From a bacterium (GTDB taxonomy: Bacteria; Armatimonadota; Fimbriimonadia; Fimbriimonadales; GBS-DC): DNA of 16,146 nt. The notes under the pieces are model-generated. The model saw only the letters and a list, made by a program, of their open reading frames with translations. It was not told the origin of the DNA and searched no databases. The stretch covers positions 1-16,146 of the forward strand of contig JARJMV020000008.1 in assembly GCA_029335935.2 (NCBI GenBank), given 5' to 3'. The position numbers were made by a program, and so were the translations under genes. Positions within the stretch are counted from its first letter, which is position 1; each line of letters begins with the position of its first letter. Positions 1-1,721 of the stretch are shown here, one piece after another.

Positions 1-684
1 GTTTTTGACTATACCTACAAGTCGCGTTTGATGCTTCTTAAAGTATTCTTTAAGCTTAGTCACAAAATTTTCTTTCACCCCGTGTTGTTCCAGTCGCCCG
101 TCCCGAACAATCGCGACTTTGATTCGGACTTCTTTGTAGCGCTTTGCCACCGAAACGATGTATGCCCACTCCAGCACGCTGCGCACGATGTTTGTAAAGC
201 TTTGCAAATCCTTGTAGATATGGTCTCCTAAGTCCTCAAGAGCAATTTGTGTCTCTGCGGAGAAGGTGTTTAGAGGCTCTTCGTTGAACCATGCCTTCAG
301 TAAGGCTTCCCGTTTTTGACGAAGCGCCTCGCTGGCTTGTGTATTTTTGTGGAAATCGAACAACTCATAGTTCTTGATTACCTTAACCACAGGTTCGGGT
401 TGTTCTTCAAGGTCGTCACTGTACGCGCATACCCTAATCATACCGAGACTGATTTCTCGGAATTCAGGAAATAGTAGGGAGCTGCCGCCATCTACGGCAA
501 TAGAGACGAGTCGGTAACTCGTAGATGCAGGCGTGATGCGCTTCACAGACGAATCCTGGAGACTGCCAGCAAGGTCCTCGATAATCTGTTTTATTTCCTT
601 GAACTGCTGGTAGTCTTCATCGTGCATCTGATTTAGAAAGTCAGATGCGCCCAGCGGGTTATTCATCTGTTTTGCGTAGGGCAT
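1..684 (-). CDS. NurA-like nuclease domain protein, partial (3' end beyond window)
   Basis: The reading frame starts at ATG 684 and stays open for 228 codons to base 1, so the C-terminus is missing. Two segments resemble NurA 5'-3' nuclease cores. One is a hydrophobic strand ending in AVDGGS (about residues 63-68), the usual position of a metal-binding Asp. The other is IVRDGRLEQHG (about 193-203), followed by a helix and LVGIVKN at the window edge, like the NurA xxRDGxL...VGxxK arrangement. NurA proteins normally work with a HerA-type hexameric ATPase in DNA end resection, and also occur in phage-defence loci; any HerA partner would lie outside the window. A strong Shine-Dalgarno (GGAGG at 690-694) lies 5 nt before the ATG, and the dndC-like stop codon is only 11 nt upstream, so the two genes are probably co-transcribed. 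GC content is low for this window. The family call rests on motif recognition only; the catalytic C-terminal residues cannot be seen. Confidence 0.72.
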   Translation of the reverse strand, partial: MPYAKQMNNPLGASDFLNQMHDEDYQQFKEIKQIIEDLAGSLQDSSVKRITPASTSYRLVSIAVDGGSSLLFPEFREISLGMIRVCAYSDDLEEQPEPVVKVIKNYELFDFHKNTQASEALRQKREALLKAWFNEEPLNTFSAETQIALEDLGDHIYKDLQSFTNIVRSVLEWAYIVSVAKRYKEVRIKVAIVRDGRLEQHGVKENFVTKLKEYFKKHQTRLVGIVKN

Positions 685-689
685 GCCAT

Positions 690-694
690 CCTCC
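690..694 (-). promoter_or_regulatory. Ribosome binding site of the NurA-like gene
   Basis: On the minus strand GGAGG sits 5 nt before ATG 684 and just after the TGA of the dndC-like gene (696-698). It fixes the start of the partial nuclease gene and supports translation from a shared mRNA. Confidence 0.7.
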
Positions 695-695
695 G

Positions 696-1721
696 TCAAT
701 AGGTGTCCGCATAGTGGGGGCTTTCCCACAATTGACAGATTCTATGATACTCGATAGATGACAGAATCTGTTCTCCCAGTGTTTGTTCGACTGCGCGCAA
801 TCGGCGCAGAATCTCAAAACGCGCCTTGAGCGTGAGTCTGCCCCAGTCTCCGTTCGGCTTGAGGACTCGGTTTTGGGGCTGTTTGGCGAACTCCACAAGC
901 CAGTTGCGAAACTCCAACAGAGGGGCAAGATCTTCACGCTTTTGAACAATCCGCTGCATCGTTCTGTCTTGGGAAATCACCGAGCATGTCCAGCATCCAA
1001 AACGCGTTTCGCGACCCTGATAAACCTCAAACAGTCCGCGCGTTGGATAGCCCCACGCGGGCGCGATGAAGTTGAGAAAATCCCACACTTCGCATTCGCG
1101 CCAGACGAGGATGGGAGAGAAGTATCCAAGTTGGAGGCGTTGGCTCTCTTCGTACCAGACGCCTTGTCCGCATTCACCGCCGCGAGCGCAGGAGAGTTGG
1201 AGACGCAGGTCGCGTGCGTCCGATTCCCCCAAACGAACGCCCGTAACAATCAACGGGCGTTCCGCAGACGAGTAGTTCCGTAGGTAGTCTTCCACAGGCT
1301 TTATCTTCAACCGACGAGTGCACCAGCGGAAGTGCTGGTGGGGGGGGGGATAGCCCTTGCCGATAAGCTGCACCCAGAAAGAATCTTCAACGGCAGGTCT
1401 GAGTTCGGTAATCTGGGCGCGTTCGGCGGCGCGGAGCCAGTCTAAAAAGCTGCGGGCAAAGTCGCGAAGGGTGGGAATCTCAATCCCTGTGTTGCAGTAA
1501 AGCACTTCCAGCGTAAAGCCATGGGCCTTAGCGGCTTCGGCGCAAAGCACCAACGCAGTCGTGGAGTCTTTTCCGCCCGAATACATCACCAGCCAGCGCG
1601 TGTAGCCACGTTCCACCATGCGTTGAATGCCTTGGCAGGCACGTTCTATCGCGTCTTGTAGGCGGTCGACGCTTGTGGGCAGTTCTGCTGAGAGCGCGTC
1701 TTTGAGCAGATCTTGGAACAT
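696..1721 (-). CDS. DndC/SspD-like ATP-pyrophosphatase (PAPS reductase family), candidate DNA phosphorothioation enzyme
   Basis: From ATG 1721 the protein is 341 residues. It has the PP-loop SGGKDS at 48-53, GYPPP at 123-127, RWCTRRLKI at 132-140, GVRLGES at 161-167, and the paired cysteines of FGCWTCSV at 241-248. With C134 and C178/C184 these could ligate an Fe-S cluster. The GCWxC motif and RWCT-LKI block are typical of DndC-type enzymes, which activate a substrate with ATP during sulfur insertion into the DNA backbone. They are not typical of assimilatory PAPS reductases. The protein seems shorter than classical DndC, so an SspD-like or standalone paralogue is possible. The same frame extends to GTG 1823, but that extra N-terminus is low-complexity, spans a palindrome and runs into the promoter of the next gene, so 1721 is preferred; no clear Shine-Dalgarno precedes it. 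A NurA-like gene follows. No DndA, B, D or E is visible. A 10-C tract interrupts the conserved GYPPP codons. Confidence 0.82.
   Translation of the reverse strand: MFQDLLKDALSAELPTSVDRLQDAIERACQGIQRMVERGYTRWLVMYSGGKDSTTALVLCAEAAKAHGFTLEVLYCNTGIEIPTLRDFARSFLDWLRAAERAQITELRPAVEDSFWVQLIGKGYPPPHQHFRWCTRRLKIKPVEDYLRNYSSAERPLIVTGVRLGESDARDLRLQLSCARGGECGQGVWYEESQRLQLGYFSPILVWRECEVWDFLNFIAPAWGYPTRGLFEVYQGRETRFGCWTCSVISQDRTMQRIVQKREDLAPLLEFRNWLVEFAKQPQNRVLKPNGDWGRLTLKARFEILRRLRAVEQTLGEQILSSIEYHRICQLWESPHYADTY
1340..1349. repeat. Homopolymer G10/C10 tract inside the dndC-like gene
   Basis: Ten consecutive G on the plus strand are ten C on the coding strand and encode the prolines of the conserved GYPPP motif. 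Gain or loss of one base would truncate the protein, so the tract could act as a contingency (phase-variable) switch, or simply be error-prone in sequencing. Confidence 0.9.

Follow-up and report, generated by a model that had tools for sequence, protein, structure and literature searches.

Why should a gene for a DndC-like sulfurtransferase stand directly before a gene for a NurA-like nuclease, and to what kind of system might the two belong? The pair lies at one end of a 16,146 nt stretch of DNA from a member of the Fimbriimonadales (Armatimonadota, GBS-DC; assembly GCA_029335935.2, contig JARJMV020000008.1), which we refer to as the window and which is an entire contig (G000:C228) of a draft genome with an assembly completeness of 85.5%. 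In the original prediction the arrangement was not recognised, and was thought to represent either a variant modification/restriction system in which NurA acts with an unseen HerA ATPase, or a modified repair module. We find that the arrangement is in fact one already known, as TdpABC, and that this end of the window is very probably the 5' part of a tdpC-tdpB-tdpA operon, predicted to encode a Tdp-type DNA phosphorothioation restriction-modification system.

Both genes are read from the minus strand. The first, which we call the tdpC-type gene, occupies positions 1721..696 and codes for 341 aa from an ATG at 1721; a GTG at 1823 is in the same frame and would, as a start, give 34 extra residues. 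The protein carries an SGGKDST PP-loop motif (residues 48-54; 1560..1580), of which SGGKDS is invariant in alignment A9, an FRWCT motif (residues 131-135; 1317..1331) that is invariant in alignments A4 and A9 and is followed downstream by LKI, and a GCWTC motif (residues 242-246; 984..998) in which the G, C, W and second C are invariant in both alignments. Together with a match to the DndC model TIGR03183 (E = 6.1e-49), these confirm the DndC-like PP-loop gene that had been predicted from RWCT..LKI and GCWxC motifs. Between FRWCT and GCWTC is a C-A-R-G-G-E-C insert (residues 178-184; 1170..1190) that marks TdpC-type proteins off from canonical DndC. The second gene, tdpB, follows its stop codon (698-696) at a distance of 11 nt, with an ATG at 684 and a GGAGG ribosome-binding site (694-690) 5 nt ahead of it, just as proposed; the contig end at base 1 cuts this gene, leaving its first 228 codons (684..1).

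The tdpB fragment contains VDGG (484..495) and DGRLEQHG (79..102) motifs, also on the minus strand, each with an invariant aspartate (D65 and D197, respectively, in the numbering of protein P0007), and across the TdpB family a set of D, E, D, D, Y and H residues is unchanged in 18 of 18 aligned relatives. The fragment fits our TdpB family model A3 with an E value of 4.4e-98; the Pfam NurA model PF09376 gives no match to it, and scores a homologue from the same genus (genome G010) at 16.8 bits, below the cut-off of 21. PADLOC offers one weak candidate for the NurA-like gene, PDC-M07A (E = 0.0018), and PbeC (E = 0.033) for a homologue. Since Pfam, NCBIfam and PADLOC alone would leave this gene nearly unassigned, it was assigned by sequence search of the PDB, where a single sequence, that of TdpB (8wet/8wfd/8y1k), was matched over nearly its full length by a profile built from 18 NurA-like relatives (E = 6.2e-88). 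The single protein from G009, a genome of the same genus, likewise matches TdpB chain 8wet_G over nearly its full length (E = 4.5e-64). The NurA nuclease signatures of the original prediction thus stand at the level of the family and its invariant residues, but not as an above-cut-off match to PF09376. We take the Tdp names of these PDB entries to be those of the TdpABC phosphorothioation defence system of An et al. 2025 (Nat Chem Biol). TdpABC is said to be the subject of that study, in which TdpC reportedly makes phosphorothioate through an adenylated DNA intermediate, and a TdpA hexamer and TdpB dimer reportedly degrade unmarked DNA and are inhibited by phosphorothioate. Our literature searches found no paper for NurA together with DndC and, for TdpABC, TdpAB or TdpC, only unrelated titles among the matches listed.

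The remainder of the operon can be seen in close relatives. A protein search of 61 related genomes recovered the first gene in seven of them, these being its own, three of the same genus (G009, G010 and G012), one of the same order (G059) and two with weak matches. The G009 contig is collinear with the window (97.26% identity across 13,201 bp) and carries a complete second gene (393 aa, read from a GTG), the first part of whose product shares 98% identity with the 228-codon window fragment, and then a third gene of 603 aa. The third gene encodes a HerA-type ATPase (PF01935 is above cut-off in all three copies), and the order tdpC-tdpB-tdpA, with intact reading frames, is common to G009, G010 and G012. 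The HerA expected to the left of the contig end is therefore present beyond tdpB in a close relative, and the proposal of a variant modification/restriction system that includes it is borne out in the gene order of three genomes, the function being predicted. Moreover, the G012 HerA-like protein matches TdpA (chain 8wet_A of 8wet/8wfd/8y1k) over nearly its full length, with an E value of 7e-134 and 450.6 bits, the next PDB chain being 8j4u, named as a nucleoside triphosphate hydrolase (56 bits), and the archaeal HerA 4d2i scoring 45.1 bits; the TdpA Walker A sequence GKTG(F/Y)GKS is present in seven of seven rows. In Thermus parvatiensis RL the triad is complete and the TdpB does not differ from the PDB chain, so that its operon is Tdp in the strict sense.

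The name DndC, as first applied to the window enzyme, holds only in part: the protein is DndC-like, but its sequence is of the TdpC type and not that of DndC proper, being short, bearing the C-x-x-GGEC insert and falling on the other side of a well-supported tree split. With TIGR03183, whose equivalog cut-off is 290.4 bits, it falls short at 167.1, whereas a canonical DndC (from locus L037) exceeds it with 389.7. With PADLOC profiles the enzyme scores 173.7 bits for DndC (E = 1.7e-51), SspD and BrxP giving 50.6 and 38.8 bits, and PF01507 is matched above cut-off. A tree was built from a selection of 36 rows, which does not take in every locus and in which 10 rows were labelled canonical DndC. 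In it the window enzyme groups with the TdpC-type rows, and a 100/100 branch of length 2.16 parts these from nine of the ten canonical rows; the tenth, L064 (Myxococcales), labelled before the tree was viewed, has a very long branch and joins the TdpC side. The insert is found in all 26 non-canonical rows and in L064, and is absent from the nine canonical rows, although its presence is partly selected, since loci were gathered with two peptide patterns of which RGGECGQG was one. Of the triad TdpC rows, those from Fimbriimonadales, Anaerolineales and 'Brevinema' fall into one supported group and those from Clostridiales and Thermus (with the orphan genes described below) into another. The window TdpC is 49% identical to the Thermus operon copy.

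The pair recurs well outside this genus. When named genomes were scanned with the DndC-like alignment, 63 loci emerged. Open reading frames of at least 80 aa were searched in every one of them, and a TdpB family gene was found in eight, every time beside a HerA family gene; the combination thus occurs beyond chance, which answers the question of how often the pair recurs. Three of the eight, L014, L015 and L018 (all Fimbriimonadales), are the same contigs as those of G010, G012 and G009, and one, L032 (1576-4504) of Thermus sp. JCM 17653, is broken by stops or frameshifts as assembled. The others are L017 (Anaerolineales), L019 (a Clostridiales metagenome-assembled genome, MAG), L025 (T. parvatiensis RL) and L016, from a MAG labelled Brevinema andersonii, a label that may be doubted because its TdpC hardly differs from the L017 protein. 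Across 291 genomes of the window's phylum TdpB matches are strong in four, all of one genus, and weak in three more, while 31 have a TdpC-type match, a strong one in five cases. Of 13 genomes in that genus, 4 have strong TdpB, a patchiness usual for defence genes. A wider search for the TdpB family, in which 7,997 candidates were scored from 5.8 billion, yielded 35 protein clusters, the window's own included. These results place the Tdp operon in the Fimbriimonadales, a lineage that has received little study, and show that besides Thermus the triad is carried by MAGs labelled Anaerolineales, Clostridiales and Brevinema.

We are led to the Tdp reading by the order of the genes, the homology of both effector proteins to TdpA and TdpB and the preservation of the motifs, together with a distribution that is patchy and recurs across several lineages. 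The system would probably mark the cell's own DNA with sulfur and destroy DNA that does not carry the mark. In such a scheme TdpC, the DndC-like enzyme, would insert sulfur into the host's DNA backbone, while a hexamer of TdpA, a HerA-like ring translocase, and a dimer of the NurA-like TdpB would run along and degrade unmarked DNA, sulfur-marked DNA blocking TdpAB. Homologues of class-V aminotransferases, the family that includes cysteine desulfurases, were found in six of six genomes, which makes a sulfur donor plausible. Activity, self-marking and defence in this organism are inferred here from sequence.

Several points weigh against this reading. The window itself holds only half of tdpB and no tdpA, and it is for this reason that the full operon in the source genome has to be deduced from G009. 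A search of the window's own 85.5%-complete assembly for tdpA/HerA did not find it, which we treat as an assembly gap and not as absence. Sequence searches of the PDB turned up no solved TdpC structure, and the naming of the window enzyme as a putative TdpC rests on gene position and on the Thermus operon. Finally, the TdpC rows of the triad loci do not form one clade in the tree (4 label changes).

That the genes might instead form a repair module, in which HerA-NurA would resect DNA ends and the DndC-like gene would serve an unrelated sulfur modification, for example of tRNA, seems to us unlikely. Such resection by HerA-NurA is indeed described for archaea and Deinococcus (PMC9960219, in the portion available), and PP-loop enzymes include tRNA thiolases and 3'-phosphoadenosine 5'-phosphosulfate (PAPS) reductases, both among the closest folds to a model of TdpC; the fold search with this model found PP-loop relatives generally, namely PAPS and adenosine 5'-phosphosulfate (APS) reductases, guanosine monophosphate (GMP) synthetases and tRNA sulfurtransferases. 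However, the HerA-like protein fits TdpA far better than archaeal HerA (a tenfold gap in bits is evident in the scores given above), the NurA-like family matched TdpB alone in the PDB, strong TdpB is confined to fewer than a third of the genomes of the genus, and TdpC-type genes are paired with two different HerA-NurA sets, the second of which is described below. The repair module offered as an alternative in the original prediction is thus disfavoured by both the patchy distribution and the TdpA and TdpB homology.

The profile matches to DndC (TIGR03183 and PADLOC) would also suit a fragment of a classical Dnd system, with DndD, DndE and other parts elsewhere in the genome, but this seems very unlikely given the sub-cut-off TIGR03183 score, the tree position of the enzyme and the results for its usual partners. 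In 13 genomes, mostly drafts, the best match to the DndD model TIGR03185 is 44.5 bits, against 219, 212 and 93 bits for three DndD proteins encoded beside canonical DndC, and weak matches are about as frequent (8 of 13 genomes) as in control genomes (9 of 14). All three of these DndD proteins are themselves under the TIGR03185 cut-off of 245.85, and no control genome passed it; the cut-off is therefore an unfair test of DndD absence, a point in favour of the Dnd alternative, and DndD was judged by bit scores instead. DndE was matched in none of the 13 genomes, nor in any control genome, by a Pfam profile that recognises three of three known DndE proteins. Least likely of all, in our view, is a decayed or inactive remnant: the window copy is indeed cut, but by a contig end, and the JCM 17653 operon is frame-broken as assembled, whereas no damage is seen in the motifs of the window or in the reading frames of G009, G010 and G012.

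The surroundings of the Tdp operon vary between genomes. It is flanked by FeoB and Fur genes in G009, by a thiouridylase-like gene in G010 and by an MreB-like gene in G012, the latter two labels having been read from the sequences. A search of 12 same-genus genomes for an empty site, by way of the flanking Fur and FeoB genes, showed none: the two genes are close together in G009, lie at least 80 kb apart on one contig in G001, G004 and G011, and in the remaining genomes are on separate contigs, or one of them is missing (G003) or weakly matched (G006). In G059 the TdpC-type gene comes directly after that for a DGQHR protein, a DndB-like partner (L012 12716-15130; TIGR04172 at 451.2 bits, just over its cut-off of 450), with no adjacent NurA or HerA.

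A second architecture, in which a TdpC-type gene is followed by a HerA gene and then by a divergent NurA-like gene, was found in 4 of the 63 loci: L022 (5877-10398) and L031 (8980-13557), both WOR-3, L023 (3-4196; Desulfovirgula) and L026 (8881-12951; Thermalbibacter). The HerA of this set matches the PDB HerA entries 7f6d, 7wrw and 7wrx with an E value of 5.1e-50; 7WRW and 7WRX are Deinococcus HerA (PMC9960219, in the portion available), and comparison of its profile with that of TdpA was weak (probability 28.3%). The NurA-like protein has no PDB sequence match, and of two copies scanned with PF09376 that of L022 is below cut-off (E = 0.016) and that of L026 gives none. An AlphaFold model of this protein (predicted local distance difference test score, pLDDT, 85) finds NurA chains as the five best of 410 PDB matches in a fold search, of which only 2ygk is significant (E = 3e-4, TM-scores 0.33/0.42), ranks 2 to 5 having E values of 0.06 to 0.39. 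A profile comparison of this NurA with TdpB failed (probability 0.08%), and strong TdpB is present in none of the genomes of the four loci, one of which has a weak match (E = 2.4e-5). We read the second set as a separately built TdpC-HerA-NurA combination, its putative NurA being called from the modelled fold and a sub-cut-off Pfam match; if this is true, sulfur marking and HerA-NurA restriction have been combined more than once. No description of this architecture was found in the literature that could be read.

TdpC-type genes keep other company as well. In two Bacteroidota loci (L024 8968-12113 and L029 5873-9029) the gene is followed by three genes of shared families, the L024 trio encoding a small protein and two others, one ParB-like and one of the DUF6602 type with a weak match to PD-DExK nucleases. 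In five Thermoplasmata loci (L033, L034, L035, L036 and L073) a convergent gene of one family faces the TdpC-type gene; judged from its L036 copy, this family is a GHKL-type ATPase.

Orphan tdpC genes are also found on viral and putative mobile DNA. Thermus phage Tsatsa (PQ109078), whose host is T. thermophilus HB8, carries one (L185 1710-2669), annotated as a PAPS reductase, whose product is 86% identical over 87% of the Thermus protein, and others are present in an IMG/VR viral contig (L094 1717-2748) and in prophages of T. parvatiensis (L027 8812-10011) and T. composti (L028 6094-7059), both of which align with the Tsatsa and L094 viruses. Between the T. parvatiensis prophage and the operon locus, tdpC is the only matching stretch, with 97.4% DNA identity over 926 bp. 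Two further orphans are in the Clostridiales MAG RBS10-35 (L020 8307-9356 and L021 8929-9975), and are 90% and 86% identical, respectively, to the triad copy L019 of the same MAG; one of them adjoins a cytosine methylase gene and an ArdC-type anti-restriction gene, and from neighbours of this kind a mobile-DNA setting seems probable for both. The tree places the orphans with the triad TdpC sequences from the host group to which each belongs, and their protein identity to the T. parvatiensis or Clostridiales triad TdpC is 84 to 93%. TdpB itself was not confirmed in any viral contig (0 of 81 pattern matches), and none was found in plasmid and phage records with the Thermus protein as query.

The viral orphans suggest a role in counter-defence, in which the virus would mark its own DNA. 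The T. composti genome weighs against this, as it has an orphan-bearing prophage but no TdpB was found in it, so that the orphan and the operon are not bound to the same host. For this reason we rate slightly lower, at somewhat less than an even chance, the broader idea of an arms race, in which TdpC would have been recruited on two or more occasions alongside different HerA-NurA machines, and host-derived orphan tdpC genes on viruses and other mobile DNA would give that DNA the host's sulfur mark and let it pass TdpAB. The 'PAPS reductase' gene has been noted in Tsatsa and P23-77, its role being left open by the authors (PMC11437467, in the portion available), and among the matches listed in the open-access literature no title or abstract opening names a Tdp link for the phage gene. 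Tying the Tsatsa-like 'PAPS reductase' to a host sulfur-marking defence would give this gene a testable function.

Comparison with known systems helps to define what is shared and what is particular to this locus. The HerA-NurA end-resection complex of Deinococcus, Sulfolobus and Thermococcus is similarly composed of a HerA-type ATPase and a NurA-type nuclease, but here a sulfurtransferase gene is linked to them and the TdpB family is below the Pfam NurA cut-off. DndABCDE-DndFGH shares the DndC-like PP-loop enzyme, and has in DndH, on the restriction side of DndFGH, a HerA/FtsK-type ATPase domain like the HerA-type partner here (PMC10853773, in the portion available); it differs in that the enzyme here is shorter and has the C-x-x-GGEC insert, that the predicted nuclease is NurA-like, and that there is no match of DndD or DndE grade in the 13 genomes. 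Sulfur-marked DNA in defence is a theme shared with SspABCD-SspE and with type 4 bacteriophage exclusion (BREX, with BrxP; PMC12839542, in the portion available), although the window enzyme, the only component compared, scores lower with SspD and BrxP than with DndC.

The closest likeness is to TdpABC. Homologues of TdpB and TdpA (the latter from relatives) accompany a DndC-like enzyme in a three-gene operon, the enzyme stands at the same operon position as in T. parvatiensis, and the lack of DndD- or DndE-grade matches in those 13 genomes, mostly drafts, fits a three-gene system. It differs in its host, in the 49% identity of TdpC to the Thermus copy, and in being known here from its sequence. 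What the present analysis adds to the known Tdp system is a wider spread, a second architecture and viral orphans, the latter two being the newer parts, while the window itself is, by the homologies of its predicted products, a member of the already known Tdp kind, here in the Fimbriimonadales.

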